From Sparassis latifolia (lineage: Eukaryota; Basidiomycota; Agaricomycetes; Polyporales; Sparassidaceae): a stretch of DNA of 64,000 nucleotides. Numbering within the stretch: the stretch's first letter is position 1; each line of letters opens with the position of its first letter. Of this stretch, positions 39,195 to 60,845 are shown in pieces. The translations under genes and the position numbers were made by a program. The notes under the pieces were generated by a model. It searched no databases. It had not been told where the DNA came from and was given only the letters and a program-made list of their open reading frames with translations. Where the stretch lies: contig JAENRS010000022.1 in the NCBI GenBank assembly GCA_018466975.1, positions 744,001 to 808,000 of the forward strand. Reading direction: 5' to 3'.

Positions 39195-40131
39195 CTAGAG
39201 TTCATATGGTTCACATGCTTCTCTCTTGCTAAGTGCCTTCTTGTAGCGCTCCATGGCATACTCAGCATGGAAGCGTGCTACATCGCGAGGAACGACGTCA
39301 GACGCTGCCGACATCAGCGTCTCCACGGACTCCGCATACTTCACAGGTAGGTATCCCCGCAAGAAGGGGATGACACCTGTAGATGAATGTAATATTAGGA
39401 ATCATTCCCCTTCAAAGAAGAGTTGTACTGACGGGGGTCCACGCATCAGCCAACTTCGCAGCTGAAAACAATTCCTGGCATCCGAATACTTCGGGCTCAG
39501 GCTCTTCAGTATGAAAATGGACGTCGTCCGTCACTTTGCATTCTTCCTTCTGTGCGCAATCGAAATCAATGATGACTGGTCTTCGATCCTTTCCCACTAG
39601 AATGTTGCGCTCAGAAAAATCATTGTGTTTGACTCCCTTGGCATGAATGGCAGAGATTGCCTTGATAGTTTCCATCCTAAGAAGAAGTTATGCATGTCAT
39701 AGACCGTATTTGGTGAAAATAAGAGAAACGTACTTAAACGTCCAGTCCATGAAAGCCAGCTCGACGTCTACAGGATTACCACAGTACTTCGTAATCAAAC
39801 ACCCCGCCCGTCCGTCTTCCATTTCTCCCTCGAAAAGGCCCAAACAGTAGGGAATGACGCCACCTTGGAGGTCGTGAAGGTGCTGATATATCTCAACTTC
39901 GTTGTGCAATTTGGCAATAGAGCGCTTCCCATAGACAACTTTGCAGGCGACTTCTTGAGGCTCTACATCACCCTCCAATGTAGCTTGGTATACACTGGAG
40001 CGTCCTTTGTGTATGCGATGGAGATTCCGTACGGATAGGTGTAAGTTGGACTGGGGATCATCGGTGCGAGTTAAGCTGAAAGTTTCGAGTGATGGATTGG
40101 AGTGTTGATCAGGAAAAATCAGAACCGACAT
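39195..40131 (-). CDS. Kinase-like protein copy B, open frame intact
   Basis: Exons 40131-39734, 39676-39429 and 39376-39195 give 275 residues. Family marks: CKVVYGKRSIAKLHNEVEIY with the candidate ATP Lys and helix-C Glu, LQGGVIPYCLGLFEGEMEDG, catalytic loop HNDFSERNILV, metal motif IIDFD, and the C-terminal KKALSKREACEPYEL. Codons are open throughout, unlike copy A. It lies head to head with a broken nuclease-like gene starting at 40968. Its promoter lost the TATA box that copy A retains, so expression may be reduced. Confidence 0.75.
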
Positions 40132-40464
40132 GACAATGTAGCAGGAATGGGGAGGAGGCTTCGCTTAGAATCGAAATGAAGGATGTATGAGCTGAAGTGT
40201 CTAGCATTGGTCGGTACCTAGAGCATAGGCGCCCGAGCGGGTGTACCCGCGCAACAACGTCAAGATCTGAGATCTCGCTATTCAAACCTGAGTGTCACGG
40301 TACTGAGTACGTGTCTGCTGCTATCACACTCCAGAGTAAATTTTTTAGGATGGAAAATTTACCGTATGCCAGTTGCCATATCTCGCTCGGTTACCCCAGT
40401 GGTCGCCAACTGTTCCAGGTTCGAGCGAGAATTCTGCGACGCTCTGTAGTGGACACTCGCTTAT

Positions 40465-40967
40465 TCAGGACCAATGATACGACATGTGCAAGTTCGCTGT
40501 TCATAAAACCATCACTGTGTATGCCCTGATTCGGTCATGGTGACGCAATCTCAAGTGGTTGCCTCACTGGCTGTCCTATGTGCATTTCAGATTTGCCTCT
40601 GTAAATGTACGTTTCAAATCTGAGACATTCGTGTTGCTCAATGTTTAAGAAATATCCACTGATGAGCCAACAGGACAATAGCGAATTTCCCGTAAGAAGT
40701 ATTCAAGTCCAGGCTAAACCCTACTATTCTCTTCCCGCAGAAGAGAGCGCTCATGCACTTCCTTGTACAGAACCCCTGCCACAAGCTGCCGCGCCATGGT
40801 TGCCAGCCTGACAATTACATCAAACCTCATGGCGTAGGCACGCCCGCAGCTGTGGAGACCTAGTGCCTGTGGTGCGTATTTAAGAACCCAGTTTACGATG
40901 CGCCGAACACAGTCTTCTGTCTCCCCTTAACATCTCGCCAAAGGGCACCTGTATTCTTCCTATACGG
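40465..40967. other. Spacer between divergent kinase-like and nuclease-like loci
   Basis: Holds a TATTTAAG at about 40877, roughly 90 bp before the old start of the nuclease-like gene; no gene. Confidence 0.4.
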
Positions 40968-42340
40968 ATGCTTCTACGCCACGACCCGAGCAGCGACATC
41001 AATGCACACTGCCAGATAATGATCCAGCAGCGACACCGAAAGCAGTCAAGGTTTCAGACAGGCGCAGGGCCGATAGCAGCGGCGACATTTGCTTACAAGG
41101 ACCTGCACAAGACACTACTACTTCCTCACAAATTCCTTACTTATGTTCCGTCGACGAGCTTTCGTGGGTCGAAGCCACCATGTTTGGTCGACCTGACCTA
41201 TCGGCGATCAAGACTCTGAAGGACGTACTCTGCGTCATGCCACCTGACCTTCCTGGTAGATACCAACGTGGCAAACTGGAAGGCACAAAGGACTTGACAC
41301 AAACCGAAATCACCCTTACCGTCACTGACCAACTCCAGAAAGTGGTCTATTTGCCTAGGCTCGTGTCTCAACTCCTCGACCGCGCGTTGGAGACGCTTCA
41401 GTTGGCTCTGCCCTTGGTGGATGCGAACGGCTATTCCGAACCTGTCGCCAGGATACATCCTTATTTTACAGCTGGCAATTTACCCCAGGTGATCTGTAGC
41501 GAGAAAGATATAGAAGCTTGGTCTCAAGCAACGCTGTTCCGTCCTGCGTTGGCAGCGCTACGTGCTATTCAGACGAAATCTCTGAGCCACGACTTTGGCA
41601 AGAAATTTCCCTACCTGTCCTCGGCTCCTTCAGGAAATGTTATTCCTGATGGCATGCTAATCTGTAAACCCTCCGAGGAGGGCCTACCGCCGCCGATGAG
41701 CATCACAATTGAAAACAAAACGCCCACCGCTTACAAGACACTCTTGTCGAGCTGCAATCGATTCCGAAAGACCCTAATGTTCGGATTCCCGAAGGAACTG
41801 CTATTCGTTTCGTATGGCCTGGCCCCCTTACCAGTAACCCCGAAGCTCGTACACGAATAATCGTCCAAGTAAGTTTACCCGCAAACCTGAAGTGCCTCAA
41901 AAAATAATAGCTAATCCTTGTCATTTAATAGGTTTGGACGCAGATGGTGGTGGAGAACTGCGACCTTGGAATTTTGTCAACGTCCACGTCAACAATCTTC
42001 TTCGCTCGTGCACGGGGAACCAACAACGACACCCTCTACATGTCGCCTACTTATCGAAGCGATGATTGCCCAATTTTCGCCGTCTTCTGTCGGTTTGCCG
42101 TTGCGGCAGGTGTATTTAGCTTCGATAGTCTGGACCTCCCAGACCCGAAGACAGCCAAAGAGGCCTTGGAGGATCGATATACCTCTGGAATAACTACCTC
42201 GTATGTCGCCACTGTATCGCAACGCTTTCACTGCTCATGTCCTTGACAGCACACTGTACAGAAATTACGACAAAACGACTGTTCGACCGCTAGGAACAGG
42301 CCCACGAACGAGATCTCAGGCGGGCTTGGCGTGATGCTGC
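40968..42340 (+). pseudogene. PD-(D/E)XK nuclease-like gene 1, frameshifted
   Basis: Aligns with the intact gene at 59397. Body: a WVEA segment, TKDLTQTEI, VVYLPRLVSQLLDRALE, IHPYFTAGNLPQVICSEKDIE, then VIPDGM and TIENKTP, which is the PD...ExK signature. After ENKTP the frame shifts (about 41745) before a segment reading IPEGTAIRFVWP. The next exon (from 41932: VWTQMVVENCDLGIL, YMSPTYRSDDCPIFAVF) is open. At the N-terminus the ATG at 40968 is out of frame with the rest, as if one base were lost. It is therefore a recent pseudogene. I give only the positions of the breaks. Confidence 0.75.
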
Positions 42341-42368
42341 AGAAGTCTACAACGAGGGTGTGTTGTGT

Positions 42369-42608
42369 TTAAATGTCTGCCTTTCGTGTCCCCTGTATAT
42401 GTCCCAGAGAACAAATATATGTTTGATGTGTCTTACTGAATAGTGATTTCCGTAAAGTATGACGATATTGAAGTTGCCTTGCATACGCGGATTGTACATG
42501 CTTCATCCAGCACATTCGTCCACTGGCAACACCTAGTTCCTTCTGCGCTCGGCAGAAGTCATTGACGAAGGGTTTACCGACTAGCACATGATTATACGAT
42601 TTACACAC
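42369..42608 (-). pseudogene. Kinase-like relic
   Basis: The minus strand reads HVLVGK, then PFVNDFCRAQKE, corresponding to NILVGKDRRPVIIDFDRAQKE in the family. The surrounding domain is lost. Confidence 0.5.
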
Positions 42609-42903
42609 AATGTCTGCTATTCTGGATCGGTTCCAACAACGTCAAACGAGGAAGAAGATCAGAAGGTATTACAGCAAAAAATGAACCTCCGCTCAGGGCA
42701 ACTATACACCGCAAGTTTTGCGGTGAGATACACGGCGCATCTCGAGAAGGATTTTACCAATATGGCGGGCGGAGTCTGTGAACGATGGGATACACAATTC
42801 CATAAGATTCATTTTGTGGCTAGAAGTACATGCGAAACGGTTCCAGAAAGTACCATGAGCATATGATACACTTTGATTCAAAAAATACTCGAAGTCGCAT
42901 CAA

Positions 42904-43776
42904 TTAAACCGTAAAACCCTAAAAATGGGGCAACTATCAATACAGACATATCGTAATACACAACAGGAGGCACTCACGCCATTGACCATCAAAATCTGGC
43001 CATTCACCCAGCTCGCATCGTCCCGGGCGAGAAACGCAACAGCAGGGCTGACCTCATCCGGCTGGCCGACGCGCTTCAACGGATGCATATTCGCAATCGC
43101 GTTAAACACCTGCTCTGTCTTGCCCGTGCGAAAGAGATCGGTGTCGATCGGGCCGGGGGAGATGGCGTTAACGGTAAGGCCCTTGGCGCCGAGGTCCTTG
43201 GAGAGCACCCGCGTCATCTGCTCGACAGCGCCCTTGGTTGCAGCGTAGACGAGGTAATTGGGCGCGATCATGGAGTTCTGGGTGAGAGAGGTGGAGAACA
43301 AGATGATGCGCCCCCCTGTGGACTCATTAACTCGAGTACCGCTAACGTATCGGCGTTCACTCACCTGATTTCATCAGCGGCGCTGCTGCTTTGACCATGA
43401 AGAACGGTGCCTTGACGTTCACCTGGAAGTGACGGTCGAAGAACTCCTCCGTCACTTCTGTGAGGCTCGCGTTCCCCATGATACCTGCGTTCAGCACCAG
43501 GATATCGAGCTTCCCGAACTCGCGGATCGTCTCCTGAATCAAGTGGGCCCCGCGCTCCGTGGACCCTACGTCGGCCTTCACGCTGATCGCGCGACCACCG
43601 CCCTTCGCAGTCTGCGCATTGATAGAGTCGACCACAGCTGCAGCGGCAGAGGGGTTAGAGACGTAGTTGACCACGACATTCGCACCGTCCGCTGCCAGGC
43701 GACAAGAGATGGCTGCACCGATGCCGCGCGACGCGCCGGTGACGAGGGCTACTTTTCCCGCAAGTGGTAGTGTCAT
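42904..43776 (-). CDS. FabG-like short-chain reductase, separate from the SDR array
   Basis: Exons 43776-43365, 43315-42978 and 42918-42904 give 254 residues. Motifs: VALVTGASRGIG, NAG, catalytic Ser in FSTSLT, YAATK, PGPIDTD, and a C-terminus restored by the last 5-codon exon to VNGGFTV, the usual ending of this family. The last exon is easily missed: reading through it would give an atypical Cys-rich tail. It resembles 3-oxoacyl-ACP reductase/glucose-dehydrogenase-like SDRs. Its exon pattern differs from the array genes, so it is not a recent copy of them. Confidence 0.88.
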
Positions 43777-44200
43777 GGTAAGATTATCCTTGGAACTTTG
43801 GTGTCGAGAGTGTTCGTTCGGTGGGTACTTTATGGGAGGAAGAGAAAGGAGGACGCAAGGACCCGGGCGGCAGCAACAGCATCGTGAGCTCAGTAATCTA
43901 AATCGATCTGGACCAGAGTAAAGTTCTCGGATAGGAATATTATGGCAGATGGAGGGTACGTCATCTCGGACTTGGCGGTGGATCCTCAAAGTCGATCTGC
44001 GCGTTCGGTTCGGCTGACAAATTACGATCCAAACTGATCTGAAATTGCAACTTTCCCCCGCCACAACGTAGATGTGGCTCCACATCATGTCTCGAAATTT
44101 TATAGCACTGACTCTTCGGTAGTCTCAACCATTGAGTAGCGTGCAATTATGTCTTACCGATTCATAACATTGGCAGACTAGACAAACTCGGTGTTCCGAG
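43777..44200. other. Divergent promoter region, no gene seen
   Basis: Lies between the FabG-like gene and the F-box/LRR-like gene. Confidence 0.45.
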
Positions 44201-45593
44201 TTGCCATACCTGTCAACCTGTCGTCATTCAACTTTAACGCACTGTCCTATTTCCAGTTTTCTATCTTGCAAAGATGCACTGTCTCTTACTGCCACAACTC
44301 GGGTTCTTCATGCTGTTGCTATCCGCCACGCTCTTGTCCAGCTCTACTGGCTCACATCTTTCCACGCCGTTACGCTCTCTCTGAACCCTATCGCTCCAGC
44401 TCGGTGCGCGAGCTTATCACAAAGACGGAGTCATGGAGACATGTATTTACGAAAGCGTCGCCTGGATTTGCTTTCGACGCACAACAATGCGCGGCACTAA
44501 CGGACCTGTTGCTCAAAGCTGTGTCTCAATTCCAACACCTGTCGCTCACTACCCCCACAGAACGATTATTATCAGAGCATCCCCAACTTGCACTGGCTAT
44601 CATAGGTTTGTCTAATCTCTCCAAGCTCTCTATGAGTAGCATTGGCTTGTTGGGCTTGCAGGTTCTGCAGTGCTTCCCAGTCTCCCTGCGCATGATCAAG
44701 CTCAGGAAGACGATCATTGACATGACCCAAGTGGTCACGGGCCTCTTGCACCTGCACAACCTTGAGACTCTATACCTTGACCATATTCCATCTGCCAATC
44801 ACCCCGTCAACGCAGAGTGCTCGTCGGTTAGGAACCTCTGGCTGTATTCCAACTTACTATATATCCCAATGCTCCCGCGTATATTCCCGGCTTGCGAACA
44901 CTGGGTGCGGGTTCGGTGGTGCCCCAAGCCTCAGAACCCGCCGCCCGCTTTTTATCGCAGCTTGGATCATCTCAGGGTGGATTTCGCACATACTGTGCGT
45001 TGGGTCATCACCCCGCTGGCGCATTCGCTCGAGGTTCGTTTGCCGCCATTCCATGCAGACCAAGTACTTGAGTCAGCCTGCGGCCTCATCCGAAACATCA
45101 CGCTACCTGTGCTTGCTCTGAGAGAATGCCACAATATTGAGGATTTGTTCTTGGATGCCCTCTGCAATGATGCCCAGGCTACACTGCGCGCGCTTCATCT
45201 CTGCTTCAAAGATGTCAACGGGTCTGATTATGATGGTATGTTGCCTCCCAGATCTCATCACGCACGTACTCAATTAACTTTCGATGGTAGGATATACTTA
45301 CACGGTCCCTTGCTTCGCTCAATCTCGTGTGGCTGCAGATCGGGTGGCCGGAGAGCACCACCCTATCCAGAGCCGCTGAAATTGTGCACGCCCTCCAACT
45401 TACCTGTGCCATCCCCTCCATACGGTACATTTCGTCTGGAGAGACAGCGTTTTCACCTTATATATGCCTTACGCGCACATCCGGATGGTGGCGCATGGCC
45501 TCGGAAAGTCGGTGCACAGTGAAGAAGCTCGCACCGGAGGTAGGTTGGTGGCTCGAGATGCGTATGGCGCATTGTGATTTTGAGCGTGTATAG
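44201..45593 (+). CDS. F-box/LRR-like hypothetical protein
   Basis: The main exon (to about 45212-45235) encodes leucine-rich text: LALAIIGLSNLSKLSMSSIGL, QVVTGLLHLHNLETLYLDHIP, SLDHLRVDF and RALHLCFKD. This looks like the LRR half of basidiomycete F-box proteins. Upstream, another frame gives SCKDALSLTATTRVLHAVAIRHAL, like the second half of an F-box, so an intron or frame change is expected near 44350-44420. The last exon starts about 45291 (ILTRSLASLNLVWLQIGWPES) and ends with stop 45591-45593. The start codon and two junctions remain uncertain, and the gene may be partly decayed. F-box proteins recruit targets to SCF ubiquitin ligases. Confidence 0.5.
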
Positions 45594-46798
45594 CACGTTA
45601 TGCAGCGATATTCTTCACCGGGACGAGCAAAGATCCATACACTAAATTTTTACGCTCAGATCTCGTGGACAAGCACACCGGCGACTTTCCCAATTGTTCT
45701 GGCCGCTGCTCCAAATTATATGCTTCGCCTCGTGTTTGCGTGCTGTTTTTGATAGGCGAGCGCCTACGTGGTAAGTCGATACTGAAGTCGCCGTTACTTC
45801 TCTCTTGGTCCAACTCTACTCTGACCCTCTCAGCTACTGAAGACTTAAAAGTCTTTCATTTGGTTAGTTCATTTGTGACAGAGGAGAGCTGAGGAGCATA
45901 CCCAGCGTCCAGGCATCAACAAAGTCCGCTACCGCCGAAGAGCTCGTCCCAGCCAAATAATATCTGACGAGGAGTCTCGCTGTAAAATATGACATCCGTA
46001 TTCAACGCGCACCCGCGTCGTTCGGTGAGGCTGTCTGTCTTCTTTCACGGCGATATTTTGATAGCTGACATTGCTGGATCCCTTTCTCATGGATTAGAAA
46101 ATATTGAATACGCGGGCTCTGCAAGAGTAATTATTGGTAGTTCTCTTCTCCTTATACCGGCAAATTCGGTGAACTGGCCTGAATGCCCAAAATATCTGTT
46201 TTAGGTGCATTTCGTTGAGTCTTCATAATGCATCGCTGCCTACTACGAACTGAGTGCCGACATGCCAAGGCAGCCTCAGCCGGCGGCGCAGATGCAGCAG
46301 GCAATAAACCGCGGCCTCCCATGGCTCAGGAAATATAGCACGAGCGGAAATACACAATTACCGTGGTAACGAGCTTGGTCAGCGATATTCGTAAAGATTG
46401 CTGTAGTCGTATTGAGACGAGTTTAAGGCAATAATGCCTCCACGGGGCCATCGCTACGCCAACTCAGGTGTTATATGAACGTTCACGACGTACCCATATC
46501 GGCGACGATTACGAGATGGAAGATATACCCATGTTGTTGTGACGACGATACCGTGTCAGATTGCAACGTTGTATGACCTTTCGAGAACAAAAACGTTCGT
46601 GGTTCTTGAATAATATAACATCCAGCTCGTTTAGACGCAACAGTAAAAGCGTCCTGCGATGGGAAATCGTTGCAGCTTAGCACGGGTAATGCTGGAGATC
46701 TTGCACTCTTCAAGTGGAGGTAGATACAACTACATGTACTAATATCGAAGGCTAGGACAGGACATCAGGATGGTCAGTTTGGATTACATGATATCCCA
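45594..46798. other. Intergenic, no gene seen
   Basis: Short frames only, with no motif. Confidence 0.45.
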
Positions 46799-47757
46799 TC
46801 ACCACGTATAGTACTCATACCGCCTTCTCTTCTCGAAAGTTGAACGGAACATATCATAATACTCCTGTCCGGCCTTGAGCGCCTCGTCAGGAGAAACACC
46901 TTCGGGAGCACACGTTGCAAGCATCTCTGGCGACTGTGCGAATTGTGTAGGCACATAGAACCCCATGAAGAGAATTTTACCTGTGAGGAATTAAGCCTCG
47001 CATGCGCATAGTGGAGGTTGTGGAACGAGGACGTACCGGGCAGCCATACTTCGGCCAATACGGCTGCATTGAAGAGCTCACGGCATCCAAAGTCTTTAAG
47101 CATAGGCTGTATATCATCAATTGTAATGGGCATTGTGGCCTCGCACTCGTGTTTCTCCGCCTCGCTGAAATCAATGAGGAATGGACGCCCTTCTACGTCG
47201 ATGACAATGTTCTCTTCGGAGAAGTTGCCATGCTCGACGCCTTTATCGTGGATTTGACGTAACAGGTTAACAACCTCACCTCTGGTATGTGCGGTTAGTC
47301 ATGCGGAATGCAGGCAGAGATACGGACACACCTAAAATCCCACTTTGTACCGCACAAAGGTTTCCGCAGTCGTTCGCCACAGTATTCTCGGACGAGACAG
47401 GCACAGCGCCCATCTTCCATTTCTCCTTGAAATAAACCAACGTAGCGTGGAATTGCGATACCTTGCAGGTCCTTCAAATGGATGTATATGTTTGCTTCGG
47501 CTTGGAGACTATTCCTGGATCGTTTCCCGAAACCAACCTTACAGACTATGTCCATCGGAGGCGGGGCTGCACCCTCCGGCAAATAGGCAACACCATCAAC
47601 AGACCACGGTAAACAGTCGCTGTTTCTCCCTTTTTCATCAACTTGACATTGGCTATTGTCAGCTCCATGTCGTCTTCCAGATCGCCGACGCTGTGTAGGT
47701 CGTACAGCTGGGGATGCTCTTCCTCAGAGTACACATCTGGAAAGTAGAGAATAGCCA
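46799..47757 (-). pseudogene. Kinase-like copy C, frameshift and HxD Asp replaced by Asn
   Basis: Starts MAILYFPDVYSEEE at 47757 and ends at 46799 with KRRRYEYYTW. Between VYRG and SVDGVAYLPEG (about 47604) one base is missing, so exon 1 is frameshifted. Downstream text is open: IVCKVGFGKRS, LQGIAIPRYVGLFQGEMEDG, and catalytic loop HGNFSEENIVI where the paralogues have H-x-D. The next motif reads LIDFS. It has therefore lost both frame and catalytic Asp. It lies in tandem upstream-to-downstream with copy D on the same strand. Confidence 0.7.
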
Positions 47758-48184
47758 TTAGAGCTGGTAGATACGATCTGAATTTGGAGGATGGGACGCA
47801 GAACGAGGTTGATGGCAACTATGCGCTGAGTGTCGGTTTACATGGCAGGAGATGCGTGCACAGTAAGCGCCTCCACACCCACAACATTCCAGATCTGACG
47901 AGAGCCCAAATTCTCCAAACTTCCAACTATAGCAATCACTCGTGACGAGCAACGAACGTCATCGCAACTTCTTCTTTGGCTTGGGCCCTTGGCAGAAGAA
48001 CATTTGTTCACCCCGCCAAGAATTATATAACTTCACGTCGGCAATGTCAACGATGAATGTGCGTCCGGCTTTGATGGTCGTTTCTGAGCTAGCACTTAGG
48101 TGAGGAATTGACAGCTGAGTCGTTTATAAAATCCAAGTCGGACCTGCAACTCTATTGAGGAACTACGTTATGCTCATTGATCAC
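47758..48184. other. Spacer between kinase-like copies C and D
   Basis: No gene supported; likely promoter of copy C and 3' flank of copy D. Confidence 0.45.
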
Positions 48185-49183
48185 TTATTGGAAGCCCATC
48201 GTGTCGAATTCGTAGGTATAAGGCTCGCACTGCGCTCGCTTGGCAAGAGCCCGGCGAAAAACCTTGAGAGATAAGCGTGCTTCCTCAAGAGCCCTCTGCG
48301 GTGGGACACACCGAGGCGCTGACTCGGCAAGCATCTCAGGTGTCAGCGCGCGCCGCGTGGGGATGTTTGATCCCATGTACCGCATTGTCTCTATATAAAA
48401 ATGAGCACCTCCAGGTGAAAGCGGTAGATGGAAACATACGAGGTAGCCACACATCAGCAAATACAGCGGCTCTGTGTAGCTCGACGCATCCAAATTCGAC
48501 CTCGTCCGGCTCCACAATGTCAAATTTGAGGGGCGGCTTGTACTGACAGTCATGTTTGGTCGTCGCTGTGGAAAAATCGACAACGATAGGCGATCCTTCG
48601 TGGTTAACCACAATGTTGTTTTCAACAATATCGCCATGTTTGATGCCTTTGCGATGCATCTCTTCCAAAGTATCGAAAAGTTGTCGTCTAATGTATCAAG
48701 AAGTTCGGTCAGGAATAGGCAGTAGGTGCGGGACAAAAACACTTACCTGAATCTCCAGTCTGTGTAGCGCAATTTTCTCTCTAGCTCTCGCCCGCAATCC
48801 TCCAGCAGGAGACATGCGGCCAAGCCATCCTCCATCTCGCCTTTATATAGACCAAGACAGCATGGTATAGACCTGCCCTGCAGGTCTCGTAGTATCTCGT
48901 AAATGTGGGCTTCGACGGCCAATGCGTCCCTGGATCGCCTGCCATACACAACCTTACAAATAACCCCACTAGGAATTTGTTCGGTGGCCTCCGGGGATCC
49001 GGATTTAACATCGACGGTGGCACGATAAACTTGTTTGACTTGCTGTTCCTTGCGGACAGCCGTCACATTGGTAAGCGTCAGTTCAATGTCGCCGTAGTTG
49101 TCTGGGACTTGAACGCTCGACAGTTCAAAAAATGGAAACGGAGTGTTTTCGGCATAAAGGTCGGGAAACCGAAGGATAGCCAT
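48185..49183 (-). CDS. Kinase-like protein copy D, intact
   Basis: Exons 49183-48747, 48687-48440 and 48390-48185 give 296 residues. Marks: GVICKVVYGRRS with the ATP Lys, LQGRSIPCCLGLYKGEMEDG, catalytic loop HGDIVENNIVV, metal motif VVDFS, and a C-terminus with RRALAKRAQCEPYTYEFD. Exon 2 is 248 nt, as in copy B, and exon 3 is 206 nt, as in copies E, F and G. A minus-strand TATATAAG lies 80 bp upstream. The nuclease-like gene 2 starts 877 bp away on the other strand, forming a divergent pair. Substrate unknown. Confidence 0.78.
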
Positions 49184-49263
49184 GATCCAATGCAAGGGAA
49201 GAGGAAATTTATGAAAACGGGTTTAGAGAGCTCACTGCACTGAGCGTTCGTTTGGAAGCAGGT

Positions 49264-49271
49264 CTTATATA
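49264..49271 (-). promoter_or_regulatory. TATA box of kinase-like copy D
   Basis: TATATAAG on the minus strand, about 80 bp before the ATG at 49183. Confidence 0.6.
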
Positions 49272-49932: not shown

Positions 49933-49939
49933 ATAAAAG
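49933..49939 (+). promoter_or_regulatory. ATAAAAG box of nuclease-like gene 2
   Basis: About 120 bp before the ATG; the setting GC-ATAAAAGC resembles CTATAAAAGC upstream of nuclease-like gene 3. Confidence 0.55.
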
Positions 49940-50059
49940 CCGCCTGTCTGTTCCGTAGACTCTACAGTTCTCTTCCTCGTTGCTCACGATCCAGCCTACG
50001 ATTCAGCCTATTGACGCCCTTGCATATCTGACCACTCCATATTTTTTTCACTAGTTATC

Positions 50060-51055
50060 ATGGAACCCTCCACGCCACCGAGAAAACACACCACCGATCA
50101 GCTGAGCACGCCACCCGGACAGACTGGGTCTTACTCTAACTTGTTCTCGTTGTCACCTCTCAGCACCATGTCTAGCCCGCGATCCGACCAGGAGCGCCAA
50201 AATCATCCCGCAATCCTTCCTATGACCTCAAGGACGTCGCCCGAGGACTGGAACATGTCTCCTAATGATTCTCCGAAGTCCAATAGAGACTGGAGCATGT
50301 CGCCAGATGACTTGTCAGTTCGAAGACATCTGATGCCGGGTCCTCATTCGCCCATGGAGGTACAAGATCCCGACCCTGAGGTTATGGAAATCGGCAGTGT
50401 TGCCCATCGTGCAAAATGGGTGGAACCACTGCCACTTCGGCCGCCCACTCCATTCGCAATCACAACGCTGCATGATGCATTGCGTGTTGAACTTCCCCGA
50501 ACTTCTCATGTCTACAAAACAGGTGCCTTGACGAGTACCCGAGCGATCCGAGAAACAGTGATCGACCTTCACATTCAGAACCCCCTTCATAAGGTCGTCT
50601 ACCTGCCGACACTGGTGACTTCTCTACGTGATCTTGCTATGGAAGAGCTCAAGAAGGTATCCATCAAATGGGGCGACCTAGATGATGTCTTGGCGATGAC
50701 AAACTTTCACCCATATAATACCTCTCAGAACTTACCGAAGGTTATCTGGTCGGAGAAGGATGTGGAACATTTGTGTCATGCAGAGTTGTTCCGACCAGCA
50801 TTGGCCGCTGTACGTGCAGTAATCTCGAAGAATATCAAGGACAGCTCTAGTGTCCATCCTTACGTTTCGTCAGCTCCGAACTTCGATGGGGTAATTCCCG
50901 ATGGCATGGTTGTTTTGGACAAGGTGGGACCAGATCCAACGGTCGGAGTCGTCATCGAGAATAAAACCCCATCAATGTGGGCTGATGGCATGAAGTTTTC
51001 CAAACTGGAGCGCCCTACTGACGAAACACAAGATGCACGGATTCCTAACTGCTAA
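50060..51055 (+). CDS. PD-(D/E)XK nuclease-like protein 2, C-terminally truncated
   Basis: One 331-residue frame from an ATG in the same context as gene 3 (M-x-x-STPP...LFSLSPLS). The Ser/Pro-rich first 110 residues look disordered. The ordered region has KVVYLPTLVTSLRDLAMEELK, FHPYNTSQNLPKVIWSEKDVE, LFRPALAAVRAV, HPYVSSAPN, then the signature GVIPDGM followed by VVIENKTPSMW. In gene 3 the exon continues with IPAGTAMRFYWP and ends VIVQ at a splice donor. Here that stretch is missing, the frame ends at TAA 51053-51055, and no donor in phase with the next exon is visible. The putative catalytic core is kept. It forms a divergent pair with kinase-like copy D. Confidence 0.65.
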   Translation: MEPSTPPRKHTTDQLSTPPGQTGSYSNLFSLSPLSTMSSPRSDQERQNHPAILPMTSRTSPEDWNMSPNDSPKSNRDWSMSPDDLSVRRHLMPGPHSPMEVQDPDPEVMEIGSVAHRAKWVEPLPLRPPTPFAITTLHDALRVELPRTSHVYKTGALTSTRAIRETVIDLHIQNPLHKVVYLPTLVTSLRDLAMEELKKVSIKWGDLDDVLAMTNFHPYNTSQNLPKVIWSEKDVEHLCHAELFRPALAAVRAVISKNIKDSSSVHPYVSSAPNFDGVIPDGMVVLDKVGPDPTVGVVIENKTPSMWADGMKFSKLERPTDETQDARIPNC

Positions 51056-51097
51056 CGAGAGAAAACCTCGTTCTGAGGTTCTCATTCATCCTGACAG

Positions 51098-51511
51098 GTT
51101 TGGACCGAGATGGTCAAGACGACGTGTGATCTCGGGATATTATCGACCTCCCAAGTAACCGTTTTTCTCACACGCGGACGAGGGAAGCATAATGACACCC
51201 TGTACATATCTCCCGCCTATTCGCGTGGAATGTGCCCTGTTTACGCGGTATTCTGCTGGTTTGCCATATCTGCGGGTGTTCTCAAGTACGAAGACCTAGA
51301 TCTACCTCCTCCGGAAACTACTTGGTGGAGTGATATGGTTCGTCGGGATGCCTACAACGAGTCCCCTGGTATATGTGCACGGTGAGTAATCTCTCTAGCA
51401 CTGGTACTTTGAACTTGAGTTCATGCGGCGAAACCACAGAACCTATTATTCGAGATTTGACAGTGAAATCAAGGAGTCCACACTCTGGAAAGAAAGACAT
51501 CATCTCACTTG
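51098..51511 (+). pseudogene. Orphan 3' exons of nuclease-like gene 2
   Basis: After an acceptor at 51097, VWTEMVKTTCDLGIL and YISPAYSRGMCPVYAVFCWFA match exon 2 of gene 3. After a second intron, TYYSRFDSEIKEST (to 51511) matches its last exon. These exons are open, but the exon they should be spliced to has lost its 3' end. Confidence 0.65.
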
Positions 51512-53294
51512 ATCTTGCCGAATGTAGGCTCCTTTCTGGCGGTCTGATTTGAAAGATCTCCTGCGTCTGTAAACATGTACTCGCTTCCTCCGGCTTACTG
51601 AGCAATGGATAATTGTCTTTCTGTGATATATAGTCCGAATTATCTCACTCACATTGTGGTTTGTGTTATACATGAAGACAAATGTATTGCATACGATGCT
51701 CTAACGAGCCCCCCTTAGTCATGACCAGTCGGATGCGCCTCCAACTCTCAAACTTCATGCCGCTCTCGATAACCTTCTTGCGAGCCCCTCAGAAATACTT
51801 ATCGACGTGCTGCGCGAGCCCCGCAATACGTTGGCGCAAATCCGGAAGGAAAGGTTCGTAGCTGAAGCAACTGCTTTATCCCACTCGCTATTCCAGCCTA
51901 TTGTTGCCACTCACCTTGTATGAGATCTGATCCACTACATCCACCTTGTTCCGTCTGCGCCGCGATGCCACTTCTCCAGTTGTGTGCAATGTTTGATCAC
52001 CGTAACATCCTACTCCACCTTGTTGGTATCTGTAAAAACATCGGACCGATGTCTGTGAAAATGTACCTCTGATATCAATGAAGATAACTAGGTCATCTTA
52101 CCTCCATCCCTCCATAAAATCCCCCAAATCGCGGATTTGAAAAGATCGTGATCGCATACATGGTGCGTGCGAATTCTGTAGAACGGGAGCACCACGTCGG
52201 GCATGCGAGCTCATTGTACCTTATACCTTGAAGAGCTTGGGCTGCATGCTACAGATTAGACTACAAAAAGTCCCAGAAACTTGTGTATGCACCTTCACAT
52301 TTTCGCGCCGAGGCCAGCCTTTACGTCTCTGGGTTAGACTGCTTACGGACGGTTGTACCGTTCGGGACATGATACTGCGCACTTACGACTTGCAGAGAAG
52401 GACGTACGGTGACTGACTTCCGGGGCTTCCACGGCGCCGTGTGACTACGGCCGACATCCAAAGAATGAGTGCAAAGCGAATTCGCCGCAGCACAATCTGC
52501 AGACTGCTCCAGTTCAAAATCTCGAGCATATGTGCATAGCCTACCGCCCTAGGATCCTCGCACATCCGAGTCTCGAGTCGGTCCATCAGGCTTTACGTCA
52601 TATAACATGCACCTATCGAGACAGACCTATGAGCAGCATGAGCCGGAATGACAAGATGCGCCTACGACCGCACAACGACAAGAGCGCAAAGGTATCGCAA
52701 ATGTAGGCTCGTTAACCAGCCTGTAGTAGATAGGAAGAAAAAGTTGTTCCTCTCTATAGTGTCGAGTGAGCACCTTGATTACCTCGACACCTCCCAAAGC
52801 GCCGCGCACGTACCTTCTACTGACAAGGATCAGGTTCCGCCCATCGGGGAGCACACGGAAGCAGATCCAGTTTGCTGACGCGGAGGATCGATCGTTGAGT
52901 TATCCAGATGAGATTGAAGTTGGATGAGCACTCATCGGGATACGGTTCAACCGGGATCTGAATCGGACAGTGCAAGCTGCAGCCCGAGCAACGAGAAGGA
53001 CTGGGCACTGGGCAGGGATCCCTCTTTTTCTTTCTTTCCTTTTTTCTTTCTTACTAGTTAAGAAAAAAAAAAAAAAAGGAAGTCCCGAACAGATGGCCGA
53101 GTTTGGGTAGGCGCTGATGGCTAGTTCAAATGTCTGAGGTGCGGCGGCGAGGCAGAAGAGTAGCGAGTATGGTGGTTGCCACGCGGATGTATTTGCATTT
53201 GACACGGGTGAAGCTTGAAATTGTTGAGTGACTTGAGTCTCGCAGTGTCCGAATCCGGAACTTGGTGTGCGTAAGCGCGTCTTCCAAGACCAAG
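51512..53294. other. Long intergenic stretch
   Basis: An open plus-strand segment at about 51720-51920 (LHAALDNLLASPSEILIDVL) looks protein-like, but I cannot place it in a gene. The rest is short frames. Confidence 0.4.
53021..53080. repeat. Pyrimidine tract followed by poly-A, able to fold back
   Basis: CTTTTTCTTTC-type run, ACTAGTTAAG hinge, then fifteen A and GGAAG. It lies about 215 bp before the BTB gene. Confidence 0.6.
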
Positions 53295-54444
53295 ATGGAC
53301 GACGGTGACAATACGCGCCCTTTGTCTCACTCCAGGTCTCGACGTCTCCGCTCTCATGACAAGCAAGATTCTTCCAGGCCGACGAAGCGCATTAGGCTCC
53401 ACCCCTCTCGCGTGAAGCATGACGAATATATTCGTCACGGCGTGTATTGGTATACTAGCGGTTCTGTCATTTTGCGCGTGTCGAATACCCTCTTCAAGCT
53501 CTCCAAGATGCGGCTGGCAAGTCAATCGCAGTATTTTGCCAAGCTGTTCGAACAGGAGAATGCACAGGGCGGGTCATCTTCGCAGGGAAGCGAGGAAGTG
53601 TTCAAGCGCGAGATCGTGGACGGTTGTCCTGTGTACGAGGTCCTCAATCTCAGTGTGTTGGATATGGAGAGATTGTTAGGAGCGTTGGATGATGGACTGT
53701 ACGTGCTCAAAACTCTTGGCGAATACTAGCGCGGCTCATTTTACTCGGGCCAGCGCCCTCTCCGTGGTGACTCCATCGTTCAAGGTCATTGTATCCATTT
53801 TGCGTGCAGTATCTACACTATCTGTTTCATCTTCAATCGTTTACGCTAAGCACCAGCTCCGTAAAGCTTGGCCTTCCGATCTTGACAAACTCAACTGCGG
53901 TGCAACAGACCTGAAGAGGGTGACAGAGTTAATCATCATCGCGAAGCACTACAATGTGCCGGAGGTGCTCAAGCGGGCATTCTACGAACTGCTTCAAAGC
54001 AAGCAATTTTGGCTGCACATGAAGAACGATCGTAACGACGTTCACCCTGGAGACAAAGACTTCATCCGTCTCCTGGTCGCTCGCGACGAAATGCAGTCTG
54101 CGTGGATTCGGACCATGAAATCACCTCCATTCTCACATAATTTGCAATTGCAGCACTCTGACGACGCCGACATTGTAAAGCGGTGCCAGACCGCCTGGGA
54201 AAATAATCAGCAGCAGTGGATTGAAGTCGTCGTCCAGTCTGATATCTTCGAGGAGGGCAGATTCGATCCATTTACTGGGTTGGATGCCATCGTCGATGTC
54301 GACTGGGCTGCAATCGGCTATTGTTCCCGGTGTGTGGGTGCTCGCAAGAAGACTTTGACAGGCCTGAAGGCTACTTGGTGGAAAAATTTGGATCCATGGT
54401 TGAAGCTGGAGGGGAGAAGACTCGTCTGGACACTCGAGGTCTAG
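53295..54444 (+). CDS. BTB/POZ-domain-like protein
   Basis: Exons 53295-53698 and 53730-54444 give 372 residues. After a basic, Ser/Arg-rich start, HDEYIRHGVYWYTSGSVILRV and NTLFKLSKMRLASQSQYFAKLF match the BTB fold as it appears in the many basidiomycete BTB proteins. GCPVYEVLNLSVLDMERLLGALDDG is the usual continuation. The second exon has FKVIVSILRAVSTLSVSS and LKRVTELIIIAKHYNVPEVLKRAFYELL, a BACK-like helical region. BTB proteins mediate dimerisation and CUL3 recruitment; no partner is visible here. The only intron would be 31 nt (53699-53729) and must be removed to keep the frame. Confidence 0.75.
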
Positions 54445-54533
54445 CGCTCTACTTATCGCGTAAGTTCCGTCAAATACATGCTTGCCCTTGCCGTCCTGGC
54501 TAATTGTCGTCGTAAGTCATCGCGGTTCGTACC

Positions 54534-55743
54534 ATGGTTTGCTTAGTCGATCGAGACAAGCTTGTGCCCTTGGAGTTCTTCCCCGCGACGTTCGTGGTTT
54601 TATTGACCGCTCGCGTGGATATAGTGCAGATGCTCGTAGGCGAAGAGAGTGTATTTATACGTATGCGACCTCGAGATGAATTCGACACCTGGTTGCATGC
54701 AAGCACCTTTCGATCTATTATACAACGGTCTCAGTCTCTCGATGTCTTCGCACTACACATTCCTTGTTCCCGGGCATCCGGATGCTCCATCCTCTAGAAC
54801 AGTACGCCCTGCTCAAGATCGACCAATACGCCCTTCCTCTTGTTCGGGCTCTCGAAGATCTCGAAGTTTTCATCCGAGACGTCATCTTGAATGACATCTC
54901 GTATCCCTTGTGCGCTGAAGAACTGTCAGCCCACGTTAGCACATGGTACGATGGAAATGGAGATGCACCGCGAATGGCATCGCTTGCCGTGAGGATCAGC
55001 TCGCGACTATTATTGAAGTCGTGAAGGCGTTTCGGGTGGACGATGAACAGCTTGCTCGGGTGCGTTCCCAGATATACCTATCACCGCCAAGGAACTGTGT
55101 ACCTGGCACTCAAATAGGTATTACTACACTGGAGGAGATGATGGATGAAGAGATAATATGGCGACGAAAGTGTTTTGTTGTCAGTTCAGCCACAGACGCG
55201 TTAGAGGCACGTGACGGACGCGAGGTGACAGCACCCTTTGTTCAAAACCTCTCTGGAACGCCTATCAGAACTACGCCTGCTACACACATGTGTCGGCCGG
55301 CTTGGAGTTGTACAACCTCTACATACAAGGACCCAAAAGGCTCTGGTCTTATGTGGAAGGATTGTGCAGGACCACGATGGTATATGATGGTGAGTAAGGT
55401 CGTGCAACCCTCCCCAGTCATTTGTGTACACCGACGACCCTTAGCTGAGGATCTCGAACGTGATTTTACCACCAATCATAGACCGTATTTCTCCTGCCGG
55501 GATGGTTGAAGATCGTGAGTCCTTTCTATATTCTTGAGATAATTGTACTCAAGCTTCTGCGATCTGCATGTAACAGTAATTCACGCACCCGGAGATCGCG
55601 TCCTCGTTATTGATCTCGCTCTCATTCCAGTCTACCGCGAGCCGGGGTTGTGTACAAGGCGATGGTCCACCATGTCGTCTTGCGCCATTCTATTAGCGCG
55701 TCCGCTCGTGCATCGGTGTGTTCTACTTTGCGATGCCCGATGA
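54534..55743 (+). pseudogene. Decayed hypothetical gene of a basidiomycete family
   Basis: Successive open pieces make sense only with frame changes: MVCLVDRDKLVPLEFFP and FDTWLHASTFRSIIQR; then MLHPLEQYALLKIDQYALPL and CAEELSAHVSTW; then EVVKAFRVDDEQLARVRSQI and EEMMDEEIIWRRKCFV; then AGLELYNLYIQGPKRLWSY; then LRISNVILPPIIDRISP. Breaks lie near 54770, 55015 and 55265 with no intron that would bridge them, so I call it a pseudogene. I recall similar hypothetical proteins in mushrooms but know no function. Confidence 0.5.
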
Positions 55744-55989
55744 CGGGCAGACGACTCGCTCCCCAACACTTGTCACATTCCTCGCGAAGATCTTCGTTAA
55801 TCTCGCAGATTGTTTAATGTTGTATGTATGTGCCATTCGCGAGCCTTTGTTCCTCCTGTAGCGGCCAGGCGTCACAACCCTTGCCGGATGGGTCATCTGC
55901 GCAGTTTGAAGATGTATAATTAAGACACCAAGAAACAGTGGGTCCATTCGTCTAATACCCTGCCAAAATCCGATATCGACTTCCACGAC

Positions 55990-56345
55990 ATATCCCACTG
56001 GTGAGTCCATTCTCCGTAGTTCTCACCGCCTTCATTAACATAACAAAGTCTCCTACATCTCTGTTGTCTTCTACTGGTTCGCAAACCTCTAGCATGGCCA
56101 ATGGTATGTATTGCATTTGCGAGTTCTTCAGCCGTACGAACGCGTCTTTCGATATTATAATCAACATTTCAGCAGGTCCTTCAGAAGACAGCAGGCGTTG
56201 CGGAAATTGCACGAAGCGAATATTCTGCACAATGATACTTGCATGAATTTTTTTTCGACCCGATGGACTTCTGAAGACCATCAATTTAGATTGTGCACGC
56301 GCAGACCATCCCTGTTTAGCCATCGAGATTATACCTTACAACCGT
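55990..56345 (+). pseudogene. Kinase-like relic, different subtype
   Basis: RRQQALRKLHEANILHNDT with MNFF following resembles a kinase catalytic loop (HND...N). Frames are broken on both sides and the metal motif is not recognisable. The wording LRKLHEA is closer to fungal FunK1-like kinases than to the local family. Confidence 0.4.
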
Positions 56346-57021
56346 GAGCCGCCGCCCAATGTTTTTGTGCAGAGTTGCATTGCATCGCTGTTTGTGTATA
56401 CGATCGCCAGGTATGCGTGTTTTTACTGTTAGTCTAAGTACAAAATTAGATTAACAGATGCACTCAACTCGATGGCAGGTACAGTCATATGTTTCGGTAA
56501 ACTGCACCATTTCACGGTTGCTTGCTGTCCTTCCACTGTACTGTCGTGGTTGCTATGACTCTGGTCGCGACAGGCATGCTTGTACGATTGAAATAGGTTA
56601 CCTGAGGCAAACTCCGGGTCTTGTTTCGAGATGGCGCAGTGTCCTGACTCCTGACACGGAATCTGTGAGTACGTGTTTAGCCTAAGTCTTCTAGCATGCT
56701 TGCTATACGAACCACTACAGTAAATTCTTAAACCTAGCACCTTTGGGGCGTGGAAGTCAAGTTGGGAGGGAGCTAAAGCCCCCACGTGCCTGTCACAATG
56801 TCTGCGTTCTCCGTGTTCTCGTTTGTCTGTTTTCTCTGCAGTCATCATTCGTGGCGTTCCCCGTGGACATTGTTTTAACATGTTAACGCCCAAAATCTGC
56901 ACGATACAGAATCGCCAGGCGAAGAATACGAATTTTTCGTGTCGACGGTCTACTGCCTCGACCGGGCCCCTTGGATGGGTACATTAGGGGAATCGCAGGA
57001 CCTTGCGCACCACGCTAGAAT
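56346..57021. other. Intergenic, no gene seen
   Basis: Short frames only. Confidence 0.45.
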
Positions 57022-57629
57022 GTGCTGGAAGTCTACGTCGAGAAGTCGCATGCAAGGTCAACTATGGGAAGCGATCCTTCCTGGCATTGCGTCATGAGCT
57101 GGATGTTTACCGGCAACTCTGCTAGTTGCGGGGCGAATAGTGTATCCCTCACTGCTTTCGGTGAGAACCTGAGGAGACCGCTGCGCGGTTCTGGTTGGAA
57201 CTTGAGGTGAGGCTGTGTACCTATCGGTCCATATGGCTGCAGCTAACACTATCATCTTAGAGATCAAGTCCTTACCTTATTTCGTCGGATATACCACATG
57301 GATGTTGAGCATGATGACTTCTATGAGGACCACATTGTAATCGACATGGACGAGCGTCCATTCCTCGTCGATTTCGGCGATGCGGCAAAACAACAGTGCA
57401 TACTTACGACACTCACCAAAATTAACTTGTGGGTCTACATTATCTCCTTGTTGAGATTATTTCCACGAGGACCTCATCATCGTATAGGATCTGTGGATAA
57501 GTATTTTAATACAAAATATGGAGACACCAACTCCCAGTCAGACCTTGCAGAAACAAGCGGCTCTTCGCAAGTACAGCAGAACTCTCGAGAAGTGGTCGCG
57601 GTGCGAACCGTAGTCGTACGAATGTGCTA
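57022..57629 (+). pseudogene. Kinase-like relic H
   Basis: Pieces in order: CKVNYGKRSFLALRHELDVY (57046-57110), a gap, GENLRRPLRGSGWNLR with a donor, then IYHMDVEHDDFYEDHIVIDMD and FLVDFGDAAKQ in exon 2 (note DFG rather than DFD). The tail LRKYSRTLEKWSRCEP is followed by a stop where intact copies continue. It converges tail to tail with kinase-like copy E. Its 3' end was duplicated together with copy E. Confidence 0.7.
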
Positions 57630-57822
57630 AATGAATTTTCGCCAACCTTCTACTGTGATACGCAAGTAGGGCGAACTGTATAGTCGGCATGATTCTCGAG
57701 TCCCAATAGTCCCTTTCAATACAGTTGGCATGACATTGGAAGTTTAATCATTGAAGGTACATTGTCATCCAGAATACAGAAGCTATCACGGGGACATCCT
57801 AAGACCGAATGATGATTGAGGC

Positions 57823-58831
57823 TCACTCTTCCACCATACTGTTATCGAGATACTTATAAGGTTCACAGCGCTTTCGTTTCTCGAGAGCTGTGCGGTACAT
57901 CTGATGATAGACGTGTGCGCGTTCAAGTGCCTCTTCCGGCGAGGTCCCCGGAGGTGCAACCGTAGCAAGCAACTCTGGCGAGTCGGTGTACTTTATCGGA
58001 ATTCTCCTTCCCAAAAAACGGAATGTTTCTTCCATAGAATGAGTACCGCATGCACACAAATGAAGATGCAGACGTACTAGGTAGCCACACATCTGCCAAT
58101 TGCCCCGCCCAGTGCAACTCGTCACACCCGAAGTGGAATCGATCAGGTTCGGGGATGTCGAACTGGATGGGTAACTTAACCGGACAGTCATGGTTCTTGG
58201 ACTCGGAGATGTCAAAGTCGACAATAATGGGGTGCCCTTCCTTATTGATAACAATGTTCTGTTCACGGACGTCGTTGTGCACGACTCCCCGGCGATGAAT
58301 CTCGAACAATGAGTCGAGTACCTGTCGTCTGTGGTATTGGTTAGATGACTAGATAATTGTCTATCAATAGAGTGTGTAGGCTCACCTGAAGTCCCAAGAG
58401 GTGTATCGCAATTTTCTAGTGAGTTCCTCACCGCAGTACTCCAACAAAAGGCAGGCAGCCCGTCCATCGTCCATTTCACCCTCGTAGAGGCCAAAGCACC
58501 GAGGAATGAGACGACCTTGCAAGTCCTGCAGCTTTTCGTACATGCCGGACTCGAAATGCAACTTGTCCCTGGCAGGTCTGCCATAGACGACTTTGCAAAC
58601 AACTTCGCGAGGAAGATGCTCGGCGGCCTCAGGGGAATCAGACGTAAAATGGAGAGTGGCGCGATAAACTGCTGACAGTTTCTTGCCCTCGTGGATACAC
58701 ACTACGTTGGCGAGGGTCAACTGCAAGTTGTTATGAGGTCCCTCGTCAGCCTGAGGATCGACAGGGAGCAAGTCATAGAATTCGGGGAGTCTGGCGTCGG
58801 GAATGAGGCTAGGAAATCTCAGAAGGGCCAT
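57823..58831 (-). CDS. Kinase-like protein copy E, intact
   Basis: Exons 58831-58386, 58328-58078 and 58028-57823 give 300 residues. Lys80 in EVVCKVVYG is the candidate ATP Lys. LQGRLIPRCFGLYEGEMDDG is the family signature. Residues 166-173 hold the catalytic loop HNDVREQN and 186-188 the metal motif DFD. The C-terminal exon has SPELLATVAPPGTSPEEALE and KRKRCEPYKYLDN. A minus-strand TATAAG lies 66 bp upstream and a hairpin-forming palindrome sits between it and the ATG. The intact nuclease-like gene 3 starts 566 bp away on the other strand. This is the only pair here with both members open. Confidence 0.82.
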
Positions 58832-58873
58832 AATCGCAGAGAGCAGATGATTTCAAGTGAAGAGGGTGAGGAG

Positions 58874-58897
58874 GAGGGTGAGGTTCACCTCACCCTC
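58874..58897 (-). promoter_or_regulatory. Leader hairpin of kinase-like copy E
   Basis: GAGGGTGAGG, loop TTCA, CCTCACCCTC: a 10-bp perfect stem directly after the TATA box, so likely in the 5' leader. Copy F has the same hairpin with a longer loop. Confidence 0.55.
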
Positions 58898-58902
58898 TTA
58901 TA
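58897..58902 (-). promoter_or_regulatory. TATA box of kinase-like copy E
   Basis: TATAAG on the minus strand, about 66 bp before the ATG at 58831. Confidence 0.5.
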
Positions 58903-59284
58903 CGTGGTTGGGTTGTGGCGTCGTGTGGGCGCCCGCAATTAGTATGCAAGATCTCAATCTGGTCGCAGCCGTGCGCCCAATTTCTCTGATCCCTGATCCG
59001 GCTACCGCATAACAATTGTCTCTCGTTGTTAAAGGGCTTCATAAGTCTAACTACGGTGCTGATTTCCGACCGCTCACTGCTTTCTATGACAACCACTATT
59101 CACTTCTCTATGGCACACATGTCGAACTCCCACGAGAAGCTCCCGGGCATCCTCAAGAAGTCTCGGATCCCATTCTTCTTCGAAGGTCCGTGTCGTGTTT
59201 GCAGATGCTGTACAGTTCGCAAGATATGGAAGTGCTGCCACCTCGACTAAAACTCCACATCCCATGATTTTGGCCCAGGTCAGC

Positions 59285-59292
59285 TATAAAAG
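59285..59292 (+). promoter_or_regulatory. TATA box of nuclease-like gene 3
   Basis: TATAAAAG, 112 bp before the ATG at 59397. Confidence 0.65.
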
Positions 59293-59396
59293 CTGCGCCT
59301 CCATTCGACCACTTCCCTCAGTCCCCCCATCTCCAGAGATTGCGGCTCGTAAGCACCCAGCACTACCATCTCCTTTGCTATACAGACTGCATCCTC

Positions 59397-60845
59397 ATGT
59401 CCGCTTCCACCCCTCCCAGCAGGCGCAGCGGCGCTGTCCAGCAATCCTTTACGCCATCTCACCAGACAGGAGAGGATCCCGACCTCTTTTCTCTGTCGCC
59501 ATTGACAAGTGTCTCGAGCCACGATGGATCAACTGAAAAGAGCCTCAGGCTGCAGTCTTTACCGTCTCCGACGGAGGAGACCACCCCGACACAAGGCCAA
59601 CCGAGACAGAGAGAAGAGGAACTGTCACCAACATTGTCTCTTCATCGTAATCTCACCACCGATGTCGGGGATGTCGGGTCTCTTTCCCACAGAGCACAAT
59701 GGTTGGAACCCCTAAAATTTGTTTCACCACGCCCATCGAACACATCGACAGTAGATCAAGCACTGCGTACTATACTACCTCGAGCGCCAGACCCATACGA
59801 AGAGGGTGCATTAAAGAGCACGAAGGATATCACGCAGACAGAACTGAATGTCAACGAGAACGATCAGCTGGAGAAGATCGTCTATGTTCCAACTTTGGTC
59901 ACCTGCCTGCGAGACCGGGCCGTCGAAAAACTCCAGAATCTGCACATCAACTGGGACGAAGACGATGATATTCTTTCTGTCACGAATTTCCATCCATATA
60001 CTACCGCTAGGAATCTGCCGGGGACAATCTGGTCTGAGAAGGATATAGAACACTGGACTCACGCAGTGTTGTTCAGACCAGCTGTAGCAGCCGTGCGTGC
60101 CGTGATGCTCCAAGATATCAAGCACGATTTCGACAAAGTTCATCCTTATGTGTCATCGTGCCCTAACATTGGTGTAATCCCGGACGGGATGTTCGTTCTA
60201 TCAGAGGAAGATTCAATACCTACTATTGGTGTGGTCGTCGAGAACAAAACACCGTCAATGTGGGATGAAGGAATGGACTACGGATCCCTGGAGTGGCCCG
60301 AAGGTAGTGAAAGAGACATCCCTGCAGGAACCGCAATGCGTTTTTACTGGCCAACGAAAATAAGAGGCAACAAAGAGCAGGATAGGGTTATAGTCCAAGT
60401 ACGCTGCTGTGGTCTCCATGGTAGTGATTTCTAGTAATCAATCTGATGTTTTTCTTTTGCCTAGGCATGGACGCAGTTGGTAAAGGCAGAGTGCGACCTC
60501 GGAATTATCTCGACTCTTAATACCAATGTTTTCCTCGCGCGTGGACGAGGAAATCACCGGAACACTCTGTATATTTCACCTACCTATCAGCGTGCAATGT
60601 GCCCTATCTACGCGGTGTTCTGCTGGTTTGCCATCGCTGCGGGTATCTTCAAGTACGAGGATCTGAATCTCCCTACACCGGACGCTAGCTGGTGGAACGA
60701 CCTAGTTAGGCGCGATTTGTACAGCGAGTCCCCGGGCGTATGTGCAGCGTGAGCTATCTAAGTATCAATGCTTATTCTTCACGCATTAACTCACGTGTTG
60801 TGTATTTGCAGGACATACTACACAAGGTACCTGGAACAGATTTGA
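59397..60845 (+). CDS. PD-(D/E)XK nuclease-like protein 3, intact
   Basis: Exons 59397-60398, 60465-60748 and 60812-60845 join in phase to 439 residues. Residues 1-90 are Ser/Thr/Pro-rich and probably disordered. The ordered part runs VGSLSHRAQWLEPL, TQTELNVNENDQLEKIVYVP, FHPYTTARNLPGTIWSEKDIE, LFRPAVAAVRAVML, HPYVSSCPN. P262-D263 and E282-x-K284 form a PD-x18-ExK arrangement, the metal-binding signature of the PD-(D/E)XK nuclease superfamily. A Cys/aromatic-rich C-terminal part follows (ISPTYQRAMCPIYAVFCWFA). The family is not one I can name; nuclease activity is inferred from this signature only. Divergent pair with kinase-like copy E. Confidence 0.75.

Follow-up and report, generated by a model that had tools for sequence, protein, structure and literature searches.

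A stretch of 64,000 nucleotides of Sparassis latifolia (the window; C14:744001-808000 within a 41.4 Mb genome of 22 contigs) was found to carry three complete head-to-head pairs of a kinase-like gene and a PD-(D/E)XK nuclease-like gene; they belong to a set of at least nine such pairs in the genome, a real and conserved form of the nuclease-kinase conflict theme, split over two genes and apparently undescribed. That theme is described from across the domains of life (PMC12693581, citing Zhang et al. 2016); in the Spok proteins of Podospora a nuclease domain kills and a kinase domain protects (PMC6660238), killing acting by DNA damage (PMC9972908). Each pair is read, with a little better than even confidence, as a two-gene toxin-antidote module, a function suggested by domain content, by the Spok work on other proteins and by an asymmetry of gene loss.

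Pairing of the two genes

A whole-genome search with the pair 3 protein located the nuclease-like gene nine times, on contigs C14 (four), C10 (three), C4 and C7 (one each), these counts being lower bounds. Three further queries, namely the copies from C7 and C4 and a relative from Amylocystis lapponica, gave the same nine loci; the last additionally matched C5:1592337, through a coiled-coil-like stretch only. A divergent kinase-like gene was located directly upstream on the opposite strand in 9/9 copies; start-to-start distances were 565, 536, 876, 836, 281, 389, 416, 632 and 855 bp, with uncertain starts in the C4 copy and the pair 1 nuclease. Eight partner kinases were obtained from kinase searches; the ninth was identified by reading open reading frames (ORFs), because the searches did not list the C7 partner. 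An earlier note on this DNA had placed a divergent kinase within 0.9 kb of each nuclease in the window; this holds, and extends to every copy found in the genome (281–876 bp). The three head-to-head pairs that it listed were confirmed at their starts (836, 876 and 565 bp for pairs 1, 2 and 3; Table 1).

The distance matrices of nucleases and partner kinases matched (Mantel r 0.97; 0/20,000 permutations), and the two trees have the C14_794/803/808 and C10 groups in common; the pairs have therefore duplicated and diverged as units. The proposal that the arrangement was kept or copied as a unit is borne out: all nine copies are paired, divergence is in step and one pair is orthologous in the sister species Sparassis crispa. 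Since the copies are related by duplication, nine pairs are not nine independent observations; more independent evidence for the pairing comes from the C4, C7 and C14/C10 lineages, which are about 26% identical. In the nuclease tree two A. lapponica proteins group with C14/C10, apart from C4 and C7 (support 82/86; midpoint root, long branches), and this placement weakly suggests that the three lineages, hence the pairing, predate the split between Sparassis and Amylocystis.

Two other explanations of the arrangement bear on these data. The pairs might be ordinary co-regulated genes of one DNA-processing pathway, tandem-duplicated and free of toxicity: joint duplication suffices for joint divergence, partial tandem duplication can give kinase-only copies, and divergent co-regulated pairs are common in compact fungal genomes. 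This is nevertheless judged unlikely, as none of the nine nucleases stands without a kinase, gaps of 281–876 bp are held across pairs about 26% identical, a fast-diverging multicopy family with pseudogenes is unlike core DNA repair genes, and the relatives found are all from Polyporales, though in searches of limited reach. The four dispersed loci could also be taken for cargo or relics of a mobile element carrying both genes, which is thought very improbable: the direct repeats found in window 34000–64000 stem from local tandem duplication of these very genes, and a scan of seven neighbouring ORFs showed no transposase (element ends were not searched for systematically).

Kinase-like protein

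Residues and profile matches place the partner protein solidly in the protein-kinase-like superfamily, as had been proposed from the letters of the window. The N-lobe Lys, helix-C Glu, catalytic Asp and Asp-Phe were retained in 9/9 partner kinases and the Asn after HxD in 8/9; in the C14_808 kinase the catalytic motif is HND, and a separate HNN is present in the N-terminal part. Pfam matches were: S. crispa ortholog (P0005), Pkinase and APH above cut-off; P0006 (SCP_1700840), APH above cut-off and Pkinase slightly below; pair 3 kinase, Pkinase on exon 2, slightly above cut-off. Solved kinase structures matched mostly residues about 110–200; as the matches mostly stop soon after DFx, the C-lobe is atypical. 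PADLOC matches of the kinase were regarded as unspecific and discarded.

Nuclease-like protein

The catalytic set of PD-(D/E)XK nucleases is a Glu in the first helix, an Asp and Glu-x-Lys, with the usual spacing. S-E-x-D, I-P-D-G and E-x-K are among the motifs that do not vary in the 11 aligned nuclease sequences (11/11), with 15–31 residues from Asp to Glu; the catalytic set of the superfamily, as given in part in PMC6660238, is thus present in all of them. A Gln was found at the junction of exons 1 and 2 in 9/9 rows reaching the junction, six of these rows having been joined there in the analysis. Judged by the motif alone, the protein is probably a PD-(D/E)XK nuclease. The invariant residues agree with the family proposed in the earlier note; the structure prediction that the note had named as a check was uninformative (two AlphaFold predictions; predicted local distance difference test (pLDDT) scores 36 and 42), and fold searches gave no significant match. 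No sequence match was found in PDB and no convincing Pfam match among the 11 family members; Chou-Fasman-type propensities agreed weakly with the expected strand order.

The HsdR subunit of a type I restriction enzyme is given as the best HHPred match of the Spok nuclease (PMC6660238). For profile comparison 30 HSDR_N_2 and 30 HSDR_N loci were fetched, and 23 and 25 were kept; rows were dropped if the matched part was interrupted or had no E-x-K, a filter that favours the hypothesis. The D...E-x-K signature was recognised by a simple pattern in 8/23 HSDR_N_2 rows and 19/25 HSDR_N rows, so mis-translated rows may remain. Scores against the nuclease profile: HSDR_N_2 – 16.5 (reached by 1/100 column shuffles, not significant; controls near it: kinase 15.0, reversed 14.1), one shuffle that scored over 100 being an artefact; HSDR_N – 12.4 (reached by 77/100 shuffles; kinase control 18.7). 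The sensitivity of the comparison is low, the nuclease profile being built from few sequences. HSDR_N_2 gave no match in the genome that carries the pairs.

Modelled tails of 80–106 residues were present in 6/9 nuclease copies, and one of 62 residues in pair 2, with four to nine Ser/Thr-Pro sites; gene 1 is left out of these figures. In the pair 3 nuclease six such sites fall in the 80-residue tail vs five in the other 356 residues. The C7 model is without a tail, and A. lapponica P0007 is without Ser/Thr-Pro tail sites. The ratio of nonsynonymous to synonymous differences per site (pN/pS) was 0.69 in the tail vs 0.21 in the core (one comparison), the tail changing faster. The Ser/Thr-Pro-rich tail is probably disordered.

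Solo kinases and asymmetry of loss

Among 32 kinase N-lobe matches in the genome, some of them fragments and perhaps some other kinases, 8 were partners and 24 non-partners. Several solo kinases are tandem copies of a kinase without accompanying nuclease. The catalytic Asp was lost in 2/12 aligned solo kinases (HGN in the window gene of Table 1; HNN in C14:738261-738826); with Asn in place of Asp, the two genes look like pseudokinases derived from the family. The solo kinase of C14:650501-656000 was 93% identical (main exons) to S. crispa SCP_1700840 (P0006), and is thus a kinase-only member that S. crispa has as well. C5:2975501-2981500 holds two tandem, strongly diverged kinase-like genes beside an ORF of 248 amino acids of unknown kind. 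No nuclease match of the family was found near the C5 kinases or near this C14:652 kinase, and a search of 15 overlapping sequences near solo kinases gave no additional remnant of a nuclease at E ≤ 0.01.

Seven of the nine nucleases were read as uninterrupted in the two main exons; two, both in the window, are apparently broken. The two main exons are free of stops in all nine partner kinases, those beside the broken nucleases included. From a toxin-antidote module one would expect the toxic gene not to be kept alone and the antidote to be free to occur by itself; in this one genome, with related copies, 9/9 nucleases found are paired and 24/32 kinase matches are non-partners. This asymmetry fits the nuclease as toxin and the kinase as antidote. 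Tandem duplication of the kinase alone can yield it too.

Selection

Ratios of nonsynonymous to synonymous substitution rates (dN/dS) were taken from unsaturated partner comparisons: C14 803 vs 808 (the youngest complete pairs) – 0.31 (nuclease), 0.35 (kinase); C10 3591 vs 3595 – 0.21 (nuclease; synonymous divergence near 1), 0.24 (kinase). With values of 0.21–0.35 both genes seem to be kept by purifying selection; kinase comparisons with solos gave 0.16–0.42.

Purifying selection on several diverged copies within one genome would also be expected of a host-beneficial immune or allorecognition device, in which the kinase restrains a nuclease effector until an infection, active transposons or cell fusion with another strain sets it free; an arms race and not drive would then account for copy number and divergence. 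The orthologous pair in S. crispa, the clustered tandem families and the faster change of the tail than of the core in the one comparison agree with it. Such a device is considered rather doubtful: no receptor, NACHT/STAND or recognition domain was found in Pfam scans of the proteins tested, and the loss asymmetry together with the Spok precedent fits a toxin-antidote module at least equally well.

Relatives in other genomes

The C14:808 pair was compared with S. crispa, the source of the closest proteins found: nuclease 98.8% identical to SCP_1700250, kinase 99.1% identical to SCP_1700260 (main exons); the corresponding values for pair 3 were 90% and 89%. One pair was found in S. crispa; judged by their locus tags (step of ten) and by the equal length of the contigs that carry them, its two genes would be neighbours. 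All relatives found are from Polyporales. No nuclease-kinase fusion was seen among the six relatives found; the searches admitted no protein longer than 1.75 times the query and could have missed fusions. No relative was obtained from prokaryotic genome contigs or viral contigs. One protein search scored only the 7,997 candidates with the most words in common; the matches listed did not include known relatives (P0001, for example), and the family may therefore be wider than found.

An S. latifolia nuclease (P0002) had C10:3505 as its best match among the nine copies, at only 65% identity; this value may hint at copy turnover between the sister species. In the A. lapponica relative P0007 a coiled-coil-like stretch was recognised by eye in the N-terminal part (residues about 46–129).

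Proposed mechanism

In the toxin-antidote module proposed here, the product of the plus-strand gene would be a nuclease of PD-(D/E)XK type that ends in a Ser/Thr-Pro-rich tail and would damage DNA if its activity were uncontrolled; the divergent gene would encode a small kinase of atypical form, by which the nuclease of the same pair is kept from doing harm. The kinase would most likely phosphorylate the nuclease, the tail being the obvious candidate where present, or a shared target, and its loss would free the nuclease to damage DNA. The short common intergenic region could let both genes switch on together. Such a module may drive selfishly by way of spores, or the host may have adopted it.

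A further step is offered tentatively and is held to be less probable than its converse: the pairs could be the first molecularly defined spore-killing (meiotic drive) family in mushroom-forming basidiomycetes, with killer and protector as separate divergent genes. If this is true, kinases standing alone would be resistance genes of natural origin, since killing and protection could be separately lost or copied, and the split form would either have given rise to the fused Spok or be its independent counterpart.

Gene models and other features of the window

Table 1. Paired and solo genes of the two families in the window (positions counted from its first letter)
Feature	Position	Strand	Remarks
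Degenerate kinase-like fragment	12101–12672	+	
Solo kinase-like gene	16805–17743	+	without nuclease
Solo kinase-like copy	36871–37587	−	tandem duplicate of pair 1 kinase; contains stop
Pair 1 kinase-like gene	39201–40131	−	start 40131; two main exons stop-free
Pair 1 nuclease-like gene	40968–42193	+	broken; SEKD, IPDG, ENK retained
Solo kinase-like gene	46802–47758	−	catalytic Asp replaced (HGN)
Pair 2 kinase-like gene	48197–49183	−	start 49183; two main exons stop-free
Pair 2 nuclease-like gene	50060–51388	+	apparently broken; SEKD, IPDG, ENK retained
Degenerate kinase-like fragment	56979–57402	+	
Pair 3 kinase-like gene, 300 amino acids	57823–58831	−	exons 58831–58386, 58328–58078, 58028–57823; second intron boundary inferred
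Pair 3 nuclease-like gene, open	59397–60845	+	exons 59397–60398, 60465–60737, 60812–60845; last exon inferred
Solo kinase-like copy	61939–62938	−	tandem duplicate of pair 3 kinase
Fourth pair kinase, exons 2 and 3	63479–63983	−	first exon and nuclease (C14:808955) just past window end

Pair 1 nuclease: The ATG at 40968 is out of frame with the catalytic core, and the frame changes near 41735. The gene is broken, as had been noted, and the claim that it keeps the nuclease signature stands as well, all three motifs being present.

Pair 2 nuclease: A segment is missing ahead of exon 2, and stops follow. An unrecognised intron was considered and set aside; because no good donor was seen by eye, the gene was rated broken, short of proof. 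This corrects the earlier note, which had named gene 1 alone as broken; of the three complete window pairs, only the third has a nuclease open through the main exons.

Pair 3 and fourth pair: The pair 3 nuclease carries SEKD, IPDG and ENK together with the Gln at the exon 1/2 junction. The fourth pair (C14:808) spans the window end and is the one orthologous to the S. crispa pair.

Neighbouring genes: A short-chain dehydrogenase gene (adh_short, Pfam) is located between pairs 1 and 2 (window 42900–44124, −), and a BTB/POZ-like ORF, slightly under the Pfam cut-off, at window 53232–53729 (+).

Comparison with known systems

Type I restriction R subunits: The best local alignment with HSDR_N_2 sets the two ExK strands in register at a score that is not significant. 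The scores with HSDR_N and HSDR_N_2 are near or below those of the controls, and neither a helicase part nor a methylase was seen in the pairs.

Restriction-modification and toxin-antitoxin modules: These bacterial modules consist of two linked genes, one for harm and one for protection, and tolerate solo protectors. In the fungal pairs protection would be provided by a kinase, with no methylase, and the genes are divergent; the analogy is functional only.

Crinklers: The theme of nuclease plus kinase is shared (PMC12693581), whereas the pairs consist of two separate genes and not of one effector. Membership in a Crinkler-type group, raised in the earlier note, found no support: neither header nor Crinkler domain appeared in the Pfam scans, in which the header models of the library were unchecked.

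Spok: Among the papers listed from the openly licensed PMC literature, by titles and abstract openings, no divergent two-gene version of the theme was found reported, nor a basidiomycete one, in line with the earlier note, whose author had not seen such a module described; the neighbourhood analysis of Zhang et al. 2016 could contain one. The likeness to Spok lies in a PD-(D/E)XK-type nuclease part with a kinase part and unstructured stretches, and in a multicopy, diverging family with pseudogenes, in which decayed copies seem first to lose the killing part (PMC6660238, where the authors put this as a possibility for decayed Spoks). The difference is that Spok, known from Podospora and other ascomycetes, is one protein, whereas 9/9 of the basidiomycete copies are two divergent genes; Spok also has a Cys/His cluster and, according to PMC6660238, an N-terminal coiled coil, of which a similar stretch is seen here by eye only in A. 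lapponica P0007. The pairs may work like Spok and are not filed as Spok, because the one-protein architecture is absent and the likeness drawn here is one of domain content.

The literature calls it unclear by what means Spok's kinase counteracts the nuclease of the same protein (PMC9972908; PMC12693581), and the two Spok activities are hard to separate because both are on one protein. With the activities on separate genes, as in a natural system of nine diverged pairs, protection could be assayed in trans: the kinase effective against each nuclease could be identified, and a switch by tail phosphorylation could be tested. The pairs would extend candidate killer-antidote elements to mushroom-forming basidiomycetes and would give a clear model for the origin of resistance-only genes.

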